Assembly: GCF_011806385.1 (NCBI RefSeq)
Contig: NZ_JAATOX010000002.1
Location: 1 to 64,000 of the forward strand
Length of the DNA stretch: 64,000 bases
Reading direction: 5' to 3'
From: Phaeobacter sp. HF9A
GTDB taxonomy: Bacteria; Pseudomonadota; Alphaproteobacteria; Rhodobacterales; Rhodobacteraceae
A model generated the notes under the pieces. The model had not been told where the DNA came from and made no database searches. It was given only the letters and a program-made list of their open reading frames with translations. Position 1 is the stretch's first letter; each line of letters begins with the position of its first letter. Both the position numbers and the translations under genes were made by a program. Positions 1,937 to 64,000 of the stretch are shown in pieces.

Positions 1937-4862
1937 CCCGCATGAAACCTCGCCCCGTCTGTTCGCCGTGCCCTGCGGCGTGGATTTTCCCCGCGCGCTG
2001 GTGGAGGGGCTCAGTCAGCGATGTGCAAATCAGCCGCCCGAAGCCCTGGCCCGGGTGGAACTGATCCTGAACACCGCGCGGATGCAACGCCGGGTGCGGC
2101 AGTTGTTCGACAGCGGACCGGCCTGCCTTCTGCCCCGGATTTCGCTGCTGTCCGGTCTCAGCAAACAGGCCAATCTGCGCGGCCTGCCCCCGGCGTTGCC
2201 ACCGCTTCGGCGTCGGTTGGAGCTGTCGCAACTGATCGCCAAGCTCCTGGACACGCAGCCCGATCTGGCGGCGCGCGCCTCGCTCTATGATCTCTCGGAC
2301 AGCCTCGCCGAGCTTATCGACGAAATGCAAAGCGAGGGCGTCAACACCGATCAGATCCGGGCGCTGGATGTGTCGGATATGTCGGGCCACTGGGCGCGGG
2401 CGCAGTCCTTCATTGGCATCGCGGATGAGTTCGTGGACCTGCACGAAGGCGCGCTGGACGTAAATGCGCGGCAACGCCAGCTGGTTCTGGACCTGATCGC
2501 CGAGTGGGAGCAAAACCCGCCGCAACACCCTGTCATCCTTGCGGGCTCCACCGGGTCACGCGGCACCACGCTGCTGCTGATGCAGGCGATCGCCCGACTG
2601 CCCCAGGGCGCGGTGGTGCTGCCCGGGTTTGACTTTGATCAGCCAACTGAGGTCTGGGAGAACCTCACCAATGGGCTGCTGGCCGAGGATCATCCGCAAT
2701 ATCGCTTTTGCAAGCTGATGCGCGATCTCGACCTTGGTCCCGGCGATATTCACCGCTGGAATGACACCCCGCCCGTTTCCGCGCCCCGCAATCGGCTGGT
2801 CTCCCTCGCGCTGCGCCCCGCCCCGGTGACCGATGCCTGGATGAGCGAAGGCCCGCAGCTGACCGGACTGGATCGCGCAACCGAGGCGCTGACACTGGTT
2901 GAGGCCGACGGGCCGCGCAGCGAGGCGCTGGCGATTGCGCTGCGTCTGCGACAGGCGGCGGAGGACGGCCAGACCGCTGCGCTGATCACCCCGGACCGGA
3001 TGCTGACGCGGCAGGTCTCTGCGGCGCTGGATCGCTGGAACATCCTGCCCGATGATTCCGCTGGTCTGCCGCTACAGCTTTCACCGCCCGGGCGCTTCCT
3101 GCGGCATGTGGCGGATCTGTTCTGCCGCCCGCTTCAGGCGGATATGTTGCTGACCTTGCTGAAACATCCGCTGACCCATTCCGGCGCGGAGCGTGGTCGC
3201 CATCTGCTGCACGCACGGGACCTGGAGCTACATCTGCGCCGCTATGGGCCGCCCTTCCCGGATCACGACAGCCTGAGCGCCTTTGGCAGCACCCGCGAAT
3301 TGCTGCCCGGCTGGGCCGATTGGCTGGCGCGCAGTTTTGCGGATCGCGCGTGGTCCGGCCCCCGCAAGCTGAGCGAGTGGGTCAGCGACCTGCGCCGCAG
3401 TGCCGAAGCCATTGCCGCCGGGGCTCAAATCGAGGGCAGCGGCGAGCTTTGGGACAAGAAGGCAGGCATAGCCGCCCGCGACATCATGGACGAGCTGGAG
3501 GCCGAAGCCCCCCATGGTGGCGAGATGACAGCGCGCGATTTTGCCGATCTCCTCGGCGCATTGCTGTCACAGGGCGAGGTGCGCGACCGCGATGCGCCCT
3601 ATGGCTCGATCATGATCTGGGGCACGCTGGAGGCCCGGGTGCAGGGCGCCGATCTGGTGATCCTTGGGGGCCTCAACGAGGGCAGCTGGCCAGAGGCCGC
3701 CCGCCCCGATCCCTGGCTGAACCGCAAGCTGCGACACGAGGCCGGGCTCTTGCTGCCGGAACGCCGGATCGGCCTCTCCGCCCATGACTTCCAGCAGGCC
3801 GTGGCTGCGCCCGAGGTCTGGCTGACCCGCGCGACCCGCTCCGAGGAGGCCGATACCGTGCCCTCGCGCTGGCTCAACCGTCTGTGCAACCTGCTGAACG
3901 GGCTGCCGGATCAGGGTGGGCAGGCAGCGCTTTCGGCGATGCGGATGCGCGGGCAGCTCTGGCTCGACCGGGCCAGCGTGCTGGATGCGCCGATCGCCTC
4001 TGCCGCCAGCCCGCGCCCCTCGCCGCGCCCGCCGGTCAGCGCCCGTCCACGGCGGCTGACCGTGACCGAAATCCCGAAACTGATCCGCGACCCCTATGCG
4101 ATCTATGCCAAACATGTGCTGCGCCTGCGGCCCGTTGATCCGCTGCTGCAAGAGCCCGACGCGCTGCTGCGTGGCACGGTAATCCACAAGGTTCTGGAGG
4201 ATTTCATCAAGGAGGCCCGGGACGCACCGGAAAAGTTGACAGCTGACATCTTTATTTCCAAATCCTTAACGCTGCTGGAACAAGAGGTGCCTTGGCCGGT
4301 CGCCCGCACCCTTTGGCTGACGCGCCTGCGCAAGGTCGCGCGGGATTTTGTCAGCGGCGAAGGTGAACGCCAGAGCCGCGCGCGCCCCTCGGGGTTTGAA
4401 GTATCCGGCAGCGTCCGGCTTGCCCCGCTTGATTTCGAAATCGCCGCCAAGGCGGACCGGATCGACGTGGATACCCGCGGCTTGCTGCATCTTTATGATT
4501 ACAAGACCGGCGATCCGCCGTCAGAGAACCGGCAAAAAGCCTTTGAAAAACAGCTGCTGATCGAGACCGCCATGGCCGAACAGGGTGCTTTTGCCGACTA
4601 TGGTGCCGCGCGGGTGGAACGCGCGCTTTATATCGGCCTGAAACCACCGGTGAAGGAGGTCGCAGCGCCGATCCTTGACGAGCCCCCGGCCAAGGTCTGG
4701 GCCGAGTTGCGCAGCCTGATCGAGGCCTATTTCGATGTCAGCCAGGGCTACAGCAGCCGCCGCATGGTGCATCGCGATGATTTTGCGGGCGATTACGACC
4801 ATCTTGCGCGCTACGGCGAATGGGACCGCAGCTCGGACCCGCAAGCGGAGGATCTGACATGA
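1929..4862 (+). CDS. addB: AddB, double-strand-break repair nuclease subunit
   Basis: AddB subunit of the AddAB helicase-nuclease that resects double-strand breaks for RecA-dependent repair. I place the start at the ATG inside the murU stop region (977 residues). A longer in-frame extension to 1848 lies wholly within murU and is rejected. The N-terminal P-loop looks degenerate (AGSTGSRGT), as in the alphaproteobacterial AddB class. A C-terminal PD-(D/E)xK nuclease is seen as ADRIDVD followed by LYDYKTGDP and a Q-rich helix. Its stop overlaps the addA start (ATGA). Confidence 0.93.
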   Translation: MFNPHETSPRLFAVPCGVDFPRALVEGLSQRCANQPPEALARVELILNTARMQRRVRQLFDSGPACLLPRISLLSGLSKQANLRGLPPALPPLRRRLELSQLIAKLLDTQPDLAARASLYDLSDSLAELIDEMQSEGVNTDQIRALDVSDMSGHWARAQSFIGIADEFVDLHEGALDVNARQRQLVLDLIAEWEQNPPQHPVILAGSTGSRGTTLLLMQAIARLPQGAVVLPGFDFDQPTEVWENLTNGLLAEDHPQYRFCKLMRDLDLGPGDIHRWNDTPPVSAPRNRLVSLALRPAPVTDAWMSEGPQLTGLDRATEALTLVEADGPRSEALAIALRLRQAAEDGQTAALITPDRMLTRQVSAALDRWNILPDDSAGLPLQLSPPGRFLRHVADLFCRPLQADMLLTLLKHPLTHSGAERGRHLLHARDLELHLRRYGPPFPDHDSLSAFGSTRELLPGWADWLARSFADRAWSGPRKLSEWVSDLRRSAEAIAAGAQIEGSGELWDKKAGIAARDIMDELEAEAPHGGEMTARDFADLLGALLSQGEVRDRDAPYGSIMIWGTLEARVQGADLVILGGLNEGSWPEAARPDPWLNRKLRHEAGLLLPERRIGLSAHDFQQAVAAPEVWLTRATRSEEADTVPSRWLNRLCNLLNGLPDQGGQAALSAMRMRGQLWLDRASVLDAPIASAASPRPSPRPPVSARPRRLTVTEIPKLIRDPYAIYAKHVLRLRPVDPLLQEPDALLRGTVIHKVLEDFIKEARDAPEKLTADIFISKSLTLLEQEVPWPVARTLWLTRLRKVARDFVSGEGERQSRARPSGFEVSGSVRLAPLDFEIAAKADRIDVDTRGLLHLYDYKTGDPPSENRQKAFEKQLLIETAMAEQGAFADYGAARVERALYIGLKPPVKEVAAPILDEPPAKVWAELRSLIEAYFDVSQGYSSRRMVHRDDFAGDYDHLARYGEWDRSSDPQAEDLT

Positions 4863-7800
4863 GCCGCAACGCCGCCTCCGAGGCGCAGTTTCGCGCCGCC
4901 CGCCCCGATGCCTCCACCTGGCTGGCGGCCAATGCGGGCTCGGGCAAGACCAAGGTGCTGACCGACCGGGTGGCGCGGCTGCTGCTGCGCGGGGTAGAGC
5001 CGCAGCATATCCTCTGCCTGACCTACACCAAGGCCGCCGCCAGCGAGATGCAGAACCGGCTGTTTCAGCGGCTGGGTGAATGGGCAATGCTGCCGGATGC
5101 CACATTGCGCGCCGCGCTGGTGGACCTCGGCGCCGAGGATGCCGCAACGGTGGAGGGGCTGGCACAGGCGCGCACCCTCTTTGCCCGCGCGATCGAGACG
5201 CCGGGCGGGCTCAAGATCCAGACCATCCACTCTTTCTGTTCGTCCCTCCTGCGCCGTTTTCCGCTGGAGGCCGGGGTCAGCCCGCAGTTTTCCGAGATGG
5301 AAGATCGCGCCGCGACCCTGCTGCGTGCAGAGATCGTCGAAGACATGGCGCAAGGCCCCGACGCCGCGGTGGTGGAGGCAGCCTCCTACCACATCGGCGG
5401 GCTGGATTTTGACAGTCTGACCGCCGAAATCTGTCGCCACCAGGCCGGGTTTGATCCCGATCTGGATCGTGACAGGCTCGGCGATGTGTTCGATCTGCCG
5501 AAGGGGTACGATCTGGCGGCGCTGAGGGCGGAGGTTTTCCTCGGCACTGAGGCCGAGATCCTGTCGCGCACCATCGAGATGCTGCGCGCGGGCGGCACAA
5601 ATGACAACAAGGCAGCGGATAAGCTGGCCTGCATCCCTGAGATCACCACCGATGCCCTGCCGATTCTGGAGGATGTCTTCCTCACCGGCAAGAGCGCCAA
5701 GGACCCCTTTTCCGCCAAGATCGGCAGCTTTCCCACCAAGAAGTTGCAGGCGAATTTCCCGGATCTGATGGACCAGCTGGAGCCCTTGATGGCGCGGGTG
5801 GAAACCGCGCGCGCACGGCGTCTGGCGCTGGATGCAATGGAAAAATCGCTTATCCTGCATGACTTTGCCCGGGTATTCCTGCCGGAATACGCGCGGCGAA
5901 AACAGCTGCGCGGGTGGCTCGATTTTGACGATTTGATCGTCAAGGCCCGCAATTTGTTGAATGATCCCGCCGTGGCAACATGGGTGCTCTACCGGCTGGA
6001 CGGGGGCATTGACCATATTCTGGTGGACGAGGCGCAGGACACCAGCCCGGTGCAATGGGATGTGGTGGAAAAGCTGGCGCAGGAGTTCACCGCCGGCGAA
6101 GGCGCCCGTGCCGAGGTGGAACGCACCATTTTTGTGGTCGGCGACAAGAAACAGTCGATTTATTCGTTTCAGGGCGCGGACCCGGATGCCTTTGACCGGA
6201 TGCAGGCAGAGTTTGGCCAGCGGCTGGCGAAAACCGGCGAGGGGCTGCAAAACGCCAGCCTCGCGTTTTCCTTCCGCTCCTCTGCCGCGATCCTCGGGCT
6301 GGTTGATGTGGTGTTTGACGGGCAAAGTCGCGCGGGATTTGTGCAGGACGCCAAACACCAGGCCTTCAAATCCGATCTGCCGGGGCGGGTGGATCTCTGG
6401 CCGCTGGTGGAGAAAACCGAGGAAGAAGAAGACCGCGACTGGACCGATCCCGTTGATCGCCCCAGCCCGCGCCACCATGCGGTGATTCTGGCCGAGCGCA
6501 TCGCCGGACAGATCAAGGCGATGATCGACAGCGGCGTCACCATCCCCGAAGATGGCCCCGAGCGCGGCAGTTTCCAGCGCCGCCCGGTGCATGCGGGGGA
6601 TTTCCTGATCCTGGTGCAGCGGCGCTCGGACCTGTTTTCCGAGATCATCCGCGCCTGCAAGGTGGCCAACCTGCCGATCGCCGGGGCGGACCGGCTGAAG
6701 GTCGGTGCGGAGCTGGCGGTCAAGGATATCGCGGCGCTGCTGCGGTTTCTTGCCCTGCCCGAGGATTCGCTCTCGCTGGCGGAGGCGCTGAAATCGCCGA
6801 TCTTCGGCTGGAGCGAACAGGCGCTGTTTGACCTCGCCCATCGCCGCACTGAAATGCACCTCTGGCCCGCGCTGCGCGCCCGTGCCGAGGAGTTTCCCGA
6901 CACGATGGCGATCCTGAATGACCTGCGCGGGCAGGCGGATTTCCTGCGTCCCTTTGACCTGATCGAACGCATCCTGACCCGCCATCTGGGCCGCGCCAAG
7001 CTGCTTGGGCGTCTGGGAAACGAGGCTCAGGACGGCATCAACGCGCTTTTGTCACAGGCGCTGGCCTATGAGCGCACCGAGGTGCCGAGCCTGACGGGTT
7101 TCCTGGTCTGGATGCAGACCGACGATCTGGAGATCAAACGTCAGATGGGCGCTGCCAGCGCGATGATCCGGGTGATGTCGGTGCATGGCTCCAAAGGTCT
7201 GGAAGCGCCGATCGTGATCCTGCCAGACACCACCAAACGCCGCCCCTCGCCGCCCTCGGAGGTGATGGAGGTCGCGGGCACGCCGCTCTGGCGGGTGTCC
7301 AGCGAGCAGATGCCCCCCGCGATGGAAGCGGCCAAGCTGCTGGCGCAGGAAAAACAGGCCAACGAGCGGTTGCGGCTCTTGTATGTGGCGCTGACCCGGG
7401 CGGAGAAATGGCTGATCGTGGCCGGGGCTGGCGATCTCGATAAGGGCGGTGACAGCTGGTATCAGCGCGTCGAGGCGGCGATGAAAACCATGGGCGCCCT
7501 GCCCTTTGACGCGCCCGGTGGCGAGGGGCTCCGCTGGGCGCATGGGGACTGGGACGCGCTGCCCTTCGTGCCCTCGGACCTCTCGGAAGAAGAAGAGATC
7601 ACCCTACCCGAGGTGTTTCGCCGCCCGGCCCCGGCCTATGTTGCGCCACCCGCCACCCTGCGCCCTTCGGAGGATCTGGGCGGGGCCAAGGCGCTGCCCG
7701 GCGACAGCGGCCTCAGCGAGGAGGAGGCCAAGGACCGCGGCACCGCGCTGCATCTGCTGCTGGAACATCTGCCGGACCTGCCCGAACCCGAATGGCAGAC

Positions 7801-8224
7801 GCGCGCCGCCGACATCGCCCAGCACGAGGACTGGCAAAACCTGCTGACCGAAGCCAGCCGGGTGCTGTCGGCGCCCGACTGTGCCGAGGTCTTTGCGCCG
7901 GATGCGCTGGCCGAAGTCGCCATCAGCGCCGAATTGGGCAGCGAGCGGCTGCATGGGGTCATCGACCGGCTGGTGATCACCCCGCAGCGTATTCTCGCCG
8001 TGGATTTCAAATCCAACGCAGTGGTGCCCGACAGCCCCGAGACCTGCCCCGAGGGGCTGTTGCGGCAGATGGGCGCCTATGACGCGGCGCTGCGCCAGAT
8101 CTACCCGGATCGCGAAATCGAGACCGCAATCCTCTGGACTCGCAGTGCCAGCCTGATGCGGCTTCCGGTCTCTCTGGTCACACAGGCGCGTGAACGCGGT
8201 ACTTTCCAGCGACTGGAACCTTGA
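4859..8224 (+). CDS. addA: AddA, double-strand-break repair helicase-nuclease subunit
   Basis: AddA is a UvrD-like 3'-5' helicase fused to a RecB-type nuclease and partners with AddB. The 1121-residue protein has Walker A ANAGSGKT near residue 24-31, the early motif CLTYTKAAASEM, motif II ILVDEAQDTSPVQW, the GDKKQSIYSFQGA motif, and a late VHGSKGLEAPIVILPD motif. The C-terminus holds the nuclease core VIDRLV and AVDFKSN. The start is the ATG that overlaps the addB stop. An upstream in-frame start at 4820 lies inside addB and is not used. Confidence 0.95.
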   Translation: MSRNAASEAQFRAARPDASTWLAANAGSGKTKVLTDRVARLLLRGVEPQHILCLTYTKAAASEMQNRLFQRLGEWAMLPDATLRAALVDLGAEDAATVEGLAQARTLFARAIETPGGLKIQTIHSFCSSLLRRFPLEAGVSPQFSEMEDRAATLLRAEIVEDMAQGPDAAVVEAASYHIGGLDFDSLTAEICRHQAGFDPDLDRDRLGDVFDLPKGYDLAALRAEVFLGTEAEILSRTIEMLRAGGTNDNKAADKLACIPEITTDALPILEDVFLTGKSAKDPFSAKIGSFPTKKLQANFPDLMDQLEPLMARVETARARRLALDAMEKSLILHDFARVFLPEYARRKQLRGWLDFDDLIVKARNLLNDPAVATWVLYRLDGGIDHILVDEAQDTSPVQWDVVEKLAQEFTAGEGARAEVERTIFVVGDKKQSIYSFQGADPDAFDRMQAEFGQRLAKTGEGLQNASLAFSFRSSAAILGLVDVVFDGQSRAGFVQDAKHQAFKSDLPGRVDLWPLVEKTEEEEDRDWTDPVDRPSPRHHAVILAERIAGQIKAMIDSGVTIPEDGPERGSFQRRPVHAGDFLILVQRRSDLFSEIIRACKVANLPIAGADRLKVGAELAVKDIAALLRFLALPEDSLSLAEALKSPIFGWSEQALFDLAHRRTEMHLWPALRARAEEFPDTMAILNDLRGQADFLRPFDLIERILTRHLGRAKLLGRLGNEAQDGINALLSQALAYERTEVPSLTGFLVWMQTDDLEIKRQMGAASAMIRVMSVHGSKGLEAPIVILPDTTKRRPSPPSEVMEVAGTPLWRVSSEQMPPAMEAAKLLAQEKQANERLRLLYVALTRAEKWLIVAGAGDLDKGGDSWYQRVEAAMKTMGALPFDAPGGEGLRWAHGDWDALPFVPSDLSEEEEITLPEVFRRPAPAYVAPPATLRPSEDLGGAKALPGDSGLSEEEAKDRGTALHLLLEHLPDLPEPEWQTRAADIAQHEDWQNLLTEASRVLSAPDCAEVFAPDALAEVAISAELGSERLHGVIDRLVITPQRILAVDFKSNAVVPDSPETCPEGLLRQMGAYDAALRQIYPDREIETAILWTRSASLMRLPVSLVTQARERGTFQRLEP

Positions 8225-9210: not shown

Positions 9211-9768
9211 ATGGCAGAGGATCAATTTCCCGGCTGGCACGGCACCACCATTATCGGCGTCCGCAAAGGCGGCGAAGTGGTGATCGCAGGCGATGGGCAG
9301 GTGTCCCTGGGACAAACGGTGATCAAGGGCACGGCGCGCAAGGTCCGCCGCCTGTCCCCCGGCGGCTATGACGTGGTGGCCGGCTTCGCGGGATCCACCG
9401 CCGACGCCTTTACCCTGCTGGAACGGCTGGAAGCCAAGCTGGAGGCGACCCCCGGGCAGTTGCAGCGTGCCAGCGTTGAACTCGCCAAGGACTGGCGCAC
9501 CGACAAATACCTGCAAAAACTGGAGGCAATGCTGATCGTCACCGATGGCAGCGATCTCTATGTGATCACCGGCGCGGGTGACGTGCTGGAGCCGGAACAT
9601 GATGTGGCGGCGATCGGATCGGGCGGCAATTTTGCCCTGGCGGCGGCGCGCGGCATGATAGACAGCGACCGCGATGCCGAAACGGTGGCGCGCGATGCGA
9701 TGGCGATTGCCGCCGATATCTGCGTCTACACCAATGGCAATCTGACGGTGGAGCGCATCTCCAAATGA
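9211..9768 (+). CDS. hslV: HslV, ATP-dependent protease peptidase subunit
   Basis: Proteasome-like threonine peptidase that forms stacked hexamers capped by HslU and degrades misfolded proteins. The 185-residue protein has an 11-residue propeptide; the expected mature N-terminus is Thr12 in [10 protein letters not shown]. The beta-type motif [10 protein letters not shown] and a C-terminal ERISK tail fit the family. I use the ATG behind GGAGGC; the frame is open 39 codons further upstream but without family similarity. Unusually, it is separated from hslU by a membrane-protein gene whose ATG overlaps the hslV stop. Confidence 0.96.
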
Positions 9769-60784: not shown

Positions 60785-61042
60785 ATGAAACCGGTTGAAA
60801 TCTATACATCTCCCCTTTGCGGCTTCTGCCACGCGGCAAAGCGGCTGCTGACCCAAAAGGGCGTGAGCTTTTCCGAGATCGACGTTCTGGCCGATCCCTC
60901 GCGCAAGACCGAGATGATTCAGCGCGCCAATGGTGGGCGCACCGTGCCGCAGATCTTTGTCGGCGAGATCCATGTCGGCGGCTGCGACGATCTTTATGCG
61001 CTGGAAAACGCGGGCAAGCTTGACCCGCTGCTGAGCGCCTGA
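60785..61042 (+). CDS. grxC: Glutaredoxin 3-type
   Basis: An 85-residue dithiol glutaredoxin that uses glutathione to reduce disulfides. The active site is C12-G-F-C15 rather than the classic CPYC; the GSH-binding TVPQIFVGEIHVGGCDDL block is intact. I use the ATG at 60785; the frame is open upstream into the comF end but lacks similarity. The amidase gene follows 8 bases later and so is probably co-transcribed. Confidence 0.93.
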   Translation: MKPVEIYTSPLCGFCHAAKRLLTQKGVSFSEIDVLADPSRKTEMIQRANGGRTVPQIFVGEIHVGGCDDLYALENAGKLDPLLSA

Positions 61043-61050
61043 GGTCCGCG

Positions 61051-61881
61051 ATGCGCGCTGCCCTGCTGCAAATGACATCCTCCGACGACCCGGAGGAAAA
61101 CCTGGCCACAGCGACCGCCATGATTTCGGACGCGGTGGCGCAGGGGGCGGGGTTCGTGCTGACGCCCGAGGTGACCAATTGCCTCTCCACCAGTCGTCAG
61201 CACCAGCGCGAGGTCCTTTGCCACGAGGACGGCGACCCAACCCTGGCAGGGCTGCGCCAGGTCGCGGCCCGGCATGGCATCTGGCTGTCGATCGGCTCTC
61301 TGGGGCTCAAGACCCATGACGTGGACGGGCGCTTTGCCAATCGGCAGTTTCTGATCACGCCAACCGGTGACATCGCGGCGCGCTATGACAAGATCCATAT
61401 GTTCGATGTGGAGGTCACGCCCGAGGAAACCTATCGCGAATCAGATGGCTATCGTCCGGGCACGCGGGCCGTTGTGGCCGATGCTGGCTTTGCGCGGATC
61501 GGGTTGACGATCTGCTATGATCTGCGCTTTCCGGCGTTGCACAGGCGTTTGGCACAGGCCGGGGCAGAGATCCTCACCGCGCCAGCAGCCTTTTCCCATG
61601 TGACCGGAGCCGACCACTGGCACAGCCTTCTGCGGGCACGGGCGATCGAGACGGGATGTTTTGTTCTGGCGGCGGCCCAGGTCGGAACCCATCCGGCCAG
61701 CCGGGGCGGCACGCGCCAGACCTACGGGCATTCGCTGGTGGTCGCCCCCTGGGGAGAGGTGCTGGCGGATGCGGGCACCGACGTCGGCGTGACCTGTGTT
61801 GATCTCGATCTCGATGCGGTCAGGAATGCGCGCAGCCGCGTGCCCTCATTGACCCACGACCGGGAGTTCGATGGGCCCTGA
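61051..61881 (+). CDS. Carbon-nitrogen hydrolase, likely deaminated-glutathione amidase type
   Basis: A 276-residue nitrilase-superfamily amidase. The catalytic triad is E40 (LTPEVTN), K114 (RYDKIHMFDV) and C155 (TICYDLRFP). The DKIHMFDVEV and CYDLRFPALHR patterns match the Nit1/YbeM branch that repairs deaminated glutathione, and placement directly after a glutaredoxin gene is consistent with glutathione metabolism. That substrate is inferred, not shown. The stop overlaps the MarR start by one base (TGATG). Confidence 0.85.
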   Translation: MRAALLQMTSSDDPEENLATATAMISDAVAQGAGFVLTPEVTNCLSTSRQHQREVLCHEDGDPTLAGLRQVAARHGIWLSIGSLGLKTHDVDGRFANRQFLITPTGDIAARYDKIHMFDVEVTPEETYRESDGYRPGTRAVVADAGFARIGLTICYDLRFPALHRRLAQAGAEILTAPAAFSHVTGADHWHSLLRARAIETGCFVLAAAQVGTHPASRGGTRQTYGHSLVVAPWGEVLADAGTDVGVTCVDLDLDAVRNARSRVPSLTHDREFDGP

Positions 61882-62321
61882 TGGATGAGAATCACTCCCT
61901 GGCGATTTCGCTGTTCAGCGAGATCTTGATGGCCGACCAACTGGCCCGCTCGCGGCTGAGCAAGGCGCTGCCCAAGGGGATGGAACTGTCGCATTTTTCG
62001 GTTCTGAACCATCTGGCGCGCGCCGGGTTGGAACGATCCCCGGCGCAACTGGCCAAGGCCTTTCATGTCACCCGTGGTGCCATGACCAATACGATTCACA
62101 AGCTGGAGGTGGCAGGCTACGTGCATGTGCGCCCGGATTGGGATGACGCCCGGCGCAAGATGGTCGCGATCAGCCCCGCAGGTCGCAAGGCCCGCGACGC
62201 GGCGCTGACCTCGATCATTCCGATGATTTCCGAGGTGGTGAGCGAGCTTGGCGGCGAGCGTGTCCGCTCCGCCCTGCCCATTCTTCGAGAGTTCCGCGGC
62301 AAGTTGGAAAGCGAAGACTAG
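61881..62321 (+). CDS. MarR-family transcriptional regulator
   Basis: A 146-residue winged-helix regulator. The DNA-binding region is SPAQLAKAFHVTRGAMTNTIHKLEVAGYVHVRPDWDDARRK (near 47-87), with the typical wing DWDDARRK and the following VAISPAGRKA. It is co-translated with the amidase gene, so it may regulate that operon or respond to an oxidative or phenolic signal. No cysteine suggestive of OhrR-type redox sensing is present. Confidence 0.9.
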   Translation: MDENHSLAISLFSEILMADQLARSRLSKALPKGMELSHFSVLNHLARAGLERSPAQLAKAFHVTRGAMTNTIHKLEVAGYVHVRPDWDDARRKMVAISPAGRKARDAALTSIIPMISEVVSELGGERVRSALPILREFRGKLESED

Positions 62322-62365
62322 GCGCCGCATCGCCCCCTTGTGAAAAACAAAAAAGAGCGTGAAAC

Positions 62366-62403
62366 ACAAAAAAAGAGCGTCGGAAAATGCCGACGCTCTT
62401 TTT
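62366..62403. terminator. Bidirectional terminator
   Basis: AAAAAGAGCGTCGG pairs perfectly with CCGACGCTCTTTTT around AAAATG. T runs follow on both strands, so it can end marR transcription and also a minus-strand transcript from 62.6 kb. Confidence 0.93.
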
Positions 62404-62580
62404 GATAGTTAGGGCCGTGAGTGGTGTGAGTGCGCCCCAATTTTACACATAGTCCTCGAACATGATGCCATGAGTGTGCGAGTGCGGCATCACGGAGGTC
62501 CCAACGCGTAGCTGCCAAACTATTCAGGAACAACAGCGGGCACAATCGCTCTATGGGATGTGTTTTTATACCAAAGTATA
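62366..62580 (-). ncRNA. Candidate minus-strand non-coding RNA
   Basis: Reading leftward, TATACT- and TATAAA-like boxes near 62565-62580 precede about 190 bases without a gene, ending in a strong terminator. The RNA could fold as a long interrupted rod: TGATGCC/GGCATCA closes a 16-base loop, then CCTC/GAGG, TACGCG/TGTGTA and AGTTT/AAATT pair outward with bulges. This rod shape resembles 6S RNA, but I cannot confirm the family. Confidence 0.4.
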
Positions 62581-62649
62581 GGCTGGCTTTCATTGCAAGG
62601 GTGAAACCGGGTTTTGACCCTGTCTCACCCTCGATGCGTTGCTATCTGA

Positions 62650-63393
62650 CTATGAATTTATGCTTGCCGTTACGTAATTTACACTCAGATCACGATCAGA
62701 AATCGACCAGCGCCACAGTAGGGGATTGAACACGAACCCCTTGCGATCAACCGGGGATAGTCCGGCCTGGCGCAGCAGGTCGAACAGTTCGTCGGGGGTG
62801 ATGAATTTTGACCATTCATGGGTGCCACGCGGCAGCCACCGCATGACCACTTCGGCCCCAAAGATCGCCATGGCATAGCTTTTGGGATTGCGGTTGATGG
62901 TCGAGCAGATCTCCAGCCCGCCGGGTTTCAAGAGCTGCCGGGTGGCGGTGAGATAGGCCAGCGGGTCGGCAACATGTTCGACCACCTCCATATTCAGCAC
63001 CACGTCAAAGGTCTCGCCGGCCTCGGCCATCGCTTCGGCTGTGGTGTGGCGATAATCAATCTCCAGCCCGGACTGTTCGGCGTGAATGCGGGCGACGGGC
63101 AGGTTGCCTTCGGCGGCATCGGCCCCGACCACCTCGGCGCCAAGCCGCGCCATCGGCTCGCTGAGCAGGCCACCGCCGCAGCCGATATCCAGCACGCGCA
63201 GCCCGGCAAAGGGCTCTGCGGTGGTCAGGTCACGGTCGAATTCCCCGGCGATCTGGCCTGTGATATAATCCAGCCGGCAGGGGTTCAGCATGTGAAGCGG
63301 TTTGAATTTCCCGTTCGGATCCCACCATTCTGCGGCCATCGCCTCGAACTTGGCGATCTCGGAGGGGTCCACCGTGGACTGTTGCGCTTGCAT
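62650..63393 (-). CDS. ubiG: UbiG, ubiquinone O-methyltransferase
   Basis: Carries out both O-methylations in ubiquinone synthesis. The 247-residue protein begins with the family block [27 protein letters not shown] (near 8-34) and LDYI, and has SAM motif [19 protein letters not shown]. The terminal region [15 protein letters not shown] is typical. Length is normal. It is divergent from pip by 50 bases and does not share an operon with other ubi genes here. Confidence 0.95.
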
Positions 63394-63443
63394 TCCTGTC
63401 TCCGTGTGTTTTCTTGTGTCCCAAGGTGTCAGTTAGGTCAGTA

Positions 63444-64000
63444 ATGGACAAATACCCGGATCAAAAGCGCGCAGTGCAGTTTCTCTACCCGCCGATCGAG
63501 CCCTTCGATCAGCGGATGCTGGAGGTTGGGCAGGGGCATCGCATCTATATGGAGCAATGCGGCAACCCCGAGGGGGTGCCCGTTATCGTCTGCCATGGCG
63601 GCCCCGGTGGCGGCACCAGCCCTGCGATGCGGCGATATTTCGACCCGCGCGTCTATCGTATCATCCTGTTTGATCAGCGCGGTTGCGGGCGATCCCGGCC
63701 GCATGCCTCTTGCGAGGACAATACGACGTGGCATCTGGTCGCAGATATGGAAGTGATCCGCGAGCTGCTGGAGATCGACGCCTGGATGTTGTTTGGCGGC
63801 AGCTGGGGCGCGACGCTGGCCTTGGTCTATGCGCAGACCCATCCCGACCGGGTGACGCATATGATTCTGCGCGGTGTCTTCCTGATGACGCAGGCGGAGC
63901 TCGACTGGTTCTATGGCGGTGGTGCGGGGAAATTCTGGCCCGAGACCTGGGCACGCTTTGCCGATCTCATTCCCGCCGGGGGGGAGGGCGGTTTGATCGC
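63444..64000 (+). CDS. pip: Proline iminopeptidase (5' part)
   Basis: An alpha/beta hydrolase that removes N-terminal proline from peptides. The 185 codons present include the oxyanion motif HGGPGGG near residue 50-56, ILFDQRGCGRSRPH, and the nucleophile elbow FGGSWGATLAL with catalytic serine near residue 119. These are the standard S33-family signatures. The gene runs off the right edge of the window, so the aspartate and histidine of the triad are not seen. Confidence 0.92.
   Translation, partial: MDKYPDQKRAVQFLYPPIEPFDQRMLEVGQGHRIYMEQCGNPEGVPVIVCHGGPGGGTSPAMRRYFDPRVYRIILFDQRGCGRSRPHASCEDNTTWHLVADMEVIRELLEIDAWMLFGGSWGATLALVYAQTHPDRVTHMILRGVFLMTQAELDWFYGGGAGKFWPETWARFADLIPAGGEGGLI

Follow-up and report, generated by a model that had tools for sequence, protein, structure and literature searches.

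The gap between ubiG and a MarR-type regulator gene in Phaeobacter sp. HF9A most likely contains a gene for a regulatory RNA of about 140 bases, belonging to marine bacteria. Sequence comparisons make us confident that a small-RNA gene under the control of an operator lies here on the minus strand, and we give about even chances to a fuller reading, in which this RNA would be driven by a response regulator and would pair with, and probably titrate, two further RNA candidates (S1 and S2), thereby acting as a decoy. The stretch of DNA that was analyzed (the window, 64,000 nucleotides) lies on contig 111 of a draft genome of 262 contigs (G000). Within it, the gap (62322-62649, 328 nt) separates the convergent MarR-type gene (61881-62321, plus strand; PF12802 and PF01047) from ubiG (62650-63393, minus strand; TIGR01983, 277.9 bits). 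The latter is the upstream neighbour of the predicted RNA, on the same strand, and its closest counterparts in the named collection are Rhodobacteraceae ubiG genes. The initial annotation had described a gene-free stretch of 328 bases beside ubiG, of which both the size and the neighbour proved correct, and had proposed that its minus strand encodes a structured RNA missed by annotation, for which conservation, operator, promoter pattern and terminator now provide good support.

When the gap was used as a query in a DNA search, 8 of the 17 other genus genomes matched at E < 1e-4, mostly with its 3' part. Tracing the conservation by anchoring on ubiG was more productive, and a unit consisting of box, promoter and RNA was found between ubiG and the MarR gene in all 18 genus genomes. 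By a motif test the unit was also present at 12 of 80 named ubiG loci (uncultured Roseobacter, Roseobacter sp. MED193, four Leisingera, Phaeobacter sp. 11ANDIMAR09, a Phaeobacter MAG, a Rhodobacteraceae MAG, the Bugula symbiont AB1, Alg231_04 and Parasedimentitalea denitrificans); in the last of these it was recognised by eye, and two loci (L106 and L122) were left out of the 80-locus assessment. The same test detected no unit at 66 of the 80 loci, including those of Ruegeria, Shimia and Sulfitobacter, and in many relatives ubiG and the MarR gene nearly abut, with no operator, promoter pattern or loop between them. A conserved small open reading frame was not seen in six relatives, which held just unrelated short ORFs or none. 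We found no paper linking Rhodobacteraceae, small RNA and ubiG, and none of the titles listed concerned this RNA. Ruegeria pomeroyi is a related marine bacterium, from a genus whose named ubiG loci were without the unit by the motif test. A 6S RNA has been reported for it, along with 99 small RNAs that are uncharacterised; the main text of that paper does not contain the word 'ubiG' (PMC4809877).

The unit starts with an operator-like palindromic box, TATACTTTGGTATA (62567-62580, minus strand), which is conserved in 34 distinct ubiG-linked loci and is preceded by CC at 62581-62582. A third half-site, CATCCC, lies at 62555-62560 on the same strand; in most loci ATCC is found 5-8 nt behind the box core. 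The whole operator region (62555-62580) reads TATAC-N4-GTATA plus this third half-site, and the consensus across loci is mostly TAT[A/C]C-N4-G[T/G]ATA, then ATCC or similar after 5-8 nt. Comparison of the loci also revealed a promoter pattern behind the box, TTG-N17-TANNNT (62517-62545). The putative -35 element is TTGTGC (62540-62545, minus strand); in 32 of the 34 distinct loci, TTG or TTT follows the box at a distance of 21-23 nt. The putative -10 element is TAGTTT (62517-62522, minus strand), with NANNNT at a spacing of 16-18 in 24 of the 34 against a background of 12-18%; this count used whichever TTG came first within a range of 14 nt. Promoter-like boxes, which the initial annotation had mentioned, became visible only when loci were compared, and a generic sigma-70 scan of the region returned no promoters. 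The positions of the two elements place the expected start of the RNA near 62510, some 70 nt within the rod that had been proposed earlier.

Some pair changes had raised the possibility that the palindrome forms the 5' RNA hairpin of the transcript. We rejected this, because similar boxes precede unrelated genes and the promoter pattern comes after the palindrome. A TTGC box 14 nt before the palindrome was also discarded as a -35 element, having the wrong spacing and being confined to one sub-clade. The palindrome is not a frequent operator in the window's genome, where 13 matches with up to 2 mismatches were found as compared to 30 in the control. Between ubiG and the box there is an imperfect hairpin (62598-62631, minus strand, 13 of 15 pairs), with no T tract behind it.

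The predicted RNA (62367-62510, minus strand) is delimited by the promoter position and the terminator, and its start may be off by a few bases. In the predicted fold it forms three separate hairpins, and none of 200 shuffles folded as well (z -5.79). Hairpin 1 spans 62444-62510 with its loop at 62471-62484, hairpin 2 spans 62409-62440 with an 18-nt loop at 62416-62433 (GCACUCACACCACUCACG), and the third is an intrinsic terminator identified by a terminator scan (62370-62403, arms 62370-62383 and 62390-62403), all on the minus strand. The perfect 14-bp stem of the terminator, already pointed out in the initial annotation, is a real inverted repeat, and its T tract can be read on both strands. 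It was the single terminator-like site in a scan of 62250-62800, on the minus strand, which is unremarkable as a count because shuffles give 0.6 on average. Minus-strand segments of 215 nt and 185 nt also folded better than shuffles (z -4.53 and z -3.96, 0 of 200 as good in each). The 'almost continuous rod' described before was not confirmed as such: part of it is DNA of the operator and promoter, which probably precedes the transcript. The sequence AAAAAGAGCGT occurs twice in direct orientation beside the terminator (62350-62360 and 62370-62383), and the other terminator arm could therefore pair with either copy.

Comparative folding showed that eight close relatives keep hairpin 2 and the terminator, both of which have changes on both sides of the stem (5 of 21 pairs). 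The loop of hairpin 2 is unpaired in the predicted ensemble, and its motif is CACCACUCACGG (62415-62426, minus strand). Among the 34 loci, 26 have the form CCACTCAC, four CCACTCGC, two TCACTCAC and two neither; the last two (L129 and L176), both outside the genus, disrupt the motif. In Leisingera the loop reads CGCCACUCACGG. As a marker of the family the motif alone is of no use, since across 394 genomes it gave 27 matches when up to 2 mismatches were allowed, as against 28 in the control, and a second copy in hairpin 1 was dismissed, exact CCACTCGC being there in just 2 of 9 close genomes. Counts of G.U and A.C pairs in the window's RNA were 5 and 2 on the minus strand and 10 and 3 on the plus strand, which is neutral as to the strand. 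The minus strand was assigned because of the orientation of box and promoter and because the terminator lies directly behind the loop.

The rod with a large bubble had earlier been taken to resemble 6S RNA. Like 6S RNA (RF00013), the window's RNA is structured, unannotated and of similar length, and the minus strand is self-complementary, but its predicted fold is different, consisting of three hairpins with no central bubble. The Rfam 6S model gave no match up to E 10 in 61000-64000, and the genome's 6S match lies elsewhere (G000:C166:5435-5587, L001; 31.4 bits, E 2.2e-4), where it would be overlooked at the default threshold because the score is below the gathering score of 46.4. With the model match absent, the fold different and the 6S match at another site, we excluded 6S RNA, which has next to no chance of being correct here. 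No other known family was recognised: in an Rfam scan of the 64-kb window no family attained its gathering score, and the best weak match at the gap was to a Streptococcus family (E 0.16). Rfam 15 gave three matches up to E 10 at 14 ubiG loci, all under gathering, and at seven loci drawn from S1, S2 and further motif clusters tRNAs alone scored over gathering.

To find other sites of the operator, we used a covariance model of the box (R1), trained on 28 loci of which 18 were genus loci. At E up to 0.1, 72 of 394 family genomes contained hits, for a total of 94, and the neighbourhoods of 70 hits were examined. Eight of these adjoin ubiG, three being already represented in the training (L172, L173 and L175), and 23 adjoin a gene for a LuxR-type response regulator and/or a molybdopterin-type exported protein, as identified by tblastn. 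The remaining 39 have other or no recognised neighbours, and several of them are probably chance hits. In L177 and L178 the box separates the molybdopterin-type gene from a nucleotidyl-transferase or sugar-transferase gene, and in L197 it stands before a polysaccharide-biosynthesis gene.

The molybdopterin-type protein (PF00174, 23.7 bits, just under the cut-off of 24) was found in 15 of the 18 genus genomes with a 70-residue query, and in all 15 loci the response-regulator gene adjoins it. Eight of these 15 loci have an exact copy of the signalling box TATACGAAAGTCTA, three have close variants (L254-L256) and four fail the pattern. In the window's genome (L258) the box (4885-4898) lies between the gene for the LuxR-type response regulator (4765-4040, minus strand; PF00072 and PF00196) and the molybdopterin-type gene (4994-5467, plus strand; just below the PF00174 cut-off), which is followed by a hybrid kinase gene with PAS, HisKA, HATPase, receiver and Hpt domains, the whole signalling set extending over 4040-7983. 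The box, a similar form of which lies at the RNA gene, seems to be the operator of this LuxR-type response regulator. We abandoned the idea that RNA and signalling locus have matching half-sites in each lineage: it is true in the close genomes, where both boxes have TATAC half-sites, but fails in G002 and G007, where the RNA box has TATCC and the signalling box TATAC. We found no paper on this regulator set in connection with exopolysaccharide.

The sequence ACCACTCACG occurs exactly at 61 sites in the nine close genomes, as compared to 39 for the reversed control. Clustering covered 55 of these sites, the other six being copies of the window's RNA, and besides that RNA two intergenic contexts (S1 and S2) recur in all nine genomes. 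Window's RNA, S1 and S2 together make up 27 of the 61 sites, the other 34 being at control level. The S1 candidate (G000:C248, about 5155-5275, minus strand; L335 and L353) is flanked by tsf (PF00889) and a convergent gene for an autoinducer-binding LuxR-type protein (PF03472). It was found in all 18 genus genomes, in some weakly (E up to 0.006), and carries GUUCCGUGAGUGGUGGC in every one of them; the LuxR-type gene is present at all 18 loci and tsf at 16. The S2 candidate (G000:C2, about 9245-9400, plus strand; L295 and L380) lies behind an OmpA-family gene (PF00691) and has CCGUGAGUGGUG and a terminator-like hairpin; it is present in 9 of 9 close genomes, with just weak matches elsewhere. 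Further copies of ACCACTCACG are found directly behind a tRNA gene in five of the nine close genomes (L303, L319, L327, L328 and L338).

When S1 is read on the CCACUCAC strand, the mismatches are mainly A.C, which turn into G.U on the opposite strand. On the GUGAGUGG strand, 18 S1 sequences have 93 G.U and 16 A.C pairs with an energy of -61.2, against 15, 40 and -36.5 on the opposite strand; for nine S2 sequences the corresponding values are 36, 2 and -62.5 against 10, 11 and -56.1. Because this base-pair pattern favours that strand, the S1 and S2 RNAs probably have CCGUGAGUGGUG, which is exactly complementary to the loop motif of the window's RNA.

In all nine close genomes the complementarity is exact over 12 pairs with S1 and 12-13 pairs with S2 (duplex -22.3 kcal/mol), of which a 10-nt match is given by construction because both candidates were found through the motif search. 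Across the other nine genomes of the genus, the longest run of Watson-Crick pairs with S1 ranges from 9 to 12, and shuffled S1 sequences gave a mean of 6.9 and a maximum of 10 in 360. Once G.U pairs are allowed, the run length fails to discriminate, because shuffles are then as long as the real runs (mean 10.0, maximum 15), and the duplex energies are mostly within the shuffle range (z -0.3 to -5.8). In G002, G007, G012 and G017 the loop has G for A (CCACTCGC), by which a G.U pair is kept with an unchanged S1. In the predicted ensemble the motif stretch is open in the window's RNA, partly paired in S1 and mostly paired in S2. This analysis of partners covered the genus genomes.

In the mechanism that we propose, the LuxR-type response regulator, encoded beside the molybdopterin-type exported protein and the hybrid kinase, would bind the box and activate the TTG-N17-TANNNT promoter, giving a transcript of about 140 nt. 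Hairpin 2 of this RNA would expose CACCACUCACGG in its loop, which would pair in the cell with CCGUGAGUGGUG of S1, behind tsf, and of S2, behind the OmpA-family gene. S1/S2-like RNAs would repress mRNAs with CCACUCAC close to the start codon, and the window's RNA would be a decoy that lifts this repression while the signalling system is on. The decoy was proposed because in other genera the mRNAs of some box-bearing genes carry CCACUCAC near the start codon; an RNA with GUGAGUGG would target such mRNAs, and an RNA offering CCACUCAC would compete with them. CCACTCRC was found within 330 nt behind 8 of 61 non-ubiG boxes on the same strand and behind none on the other strand, with counts of 2 and 0 in the upstream windows and about 1 predicted from the locus-wide rate. 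By inspection, four of the eight sites lie in mRNAs: that of L197 immediately precedes a start codon, and those of L191, L199 and L207 fall within early codons. No gene start was recognised at the other four, and in three of them (L184, L213 and L239, the fourth being L183) a terminator-like hairpin follows the motif.

Complementarity is symmetric, and the same gene, regulator and pairing could also serve with the roles reversed, S1 and S2 silencing the window's RNA, which would itself be an mRNA regulator. The S1 stretch is unchanged in 18 of 18 genomes, in line with such a role, but same-sense CCACUCAC near start codons suits S1/S2-like RNAs better as the mRNA regulators, and we regard the reversal as quite unlikely. 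The conserved operator, promoter and loop, together with duplex energies that are weak against shuffles, would also fit a small RNA under response-regulator control whose CCACUCAC loop acts on mRNAs or a protein, with the match to S1 and S2 being irrelevant in the cell. We consider this unlikely, given that the excess of the motif over the control is accounted for by the window's RNA, S1 and S2 (27 of 61; control 39) and that S1 and S2 favour the complementary strand. There is little to suggest that ubiG and the MarR gene simply share a terminator and 3' region in the gap, where DNA sites would be conserved but no separate RNA made: the place of the terminator between convergent genes and the T tract on both strands agree with this, but conservation upstream of the terminator includes operator, promoter pattern and loop, and the many relatives in which the two genes nearly abut are without these elements.

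The decoy reading, which we prefer, resembles the GacS/GacA (BarA/UvrY) system with RsmY/RsmZ/CsrB, where RNA titrates CsrA. Common to both are a hybrid kinase, a LuxR-type response regulator, a palindromic upstream box (judged by sequence alone, a similar box lies at the regulator's gene and at the RNA gene), an exposed loop motif of the repeated type and the proposed titration. CsrA (PF02599), however, had no match in any of the 18 genus genomes, as compared to 3 of 14 control genomes, and we rejected a CsrA decoy; the titrated partner here would be RNA. The Gac box also differs from the window's box, and the response regulator scores well under the family cut-offs for NarL (108.9 of 250 bits) and UvrY/GacA (67.8 of 280 bits). 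The sponge RNAs SroC and 3'ETS-leuZ base-pair with small RNAs and relieve the repression that these exert, as the window's RNA would do with S1 and S2, to which it is complementary and which are themselves predictions. SroC and 3'ETS-leuZ are by-products of mRNA or tRNA, whereas the window's RNA is predicted to have an independent gene with its own putative response-regulator box. We tentatively suggest a Gac-like circuit without CsrA, in which the kinase/regulator pair, with a molybdopterin-type exported protein, switches on a decoy RNA that captures two sibling RNAs by loop pairing and frees mRNAs bearing CCACUCAC near their start; in some genera the freed mRNAs would be those of genes in the same regulon and of a polysaccharide gene.

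If the proposed reading is right, our analysis adds three RNA candidates without a match in Rfam 15. A two-component system would then steer RNA-RNA titration in a genus with no CsrA match, and the recurrent set of kinase, response regulator and molybdopterin-type protein would gain a hypothesis of its function. The RNA, its operator and promoter, a likely regulator and two likely partners form a network that is open to testing in culturable marine bacteria.
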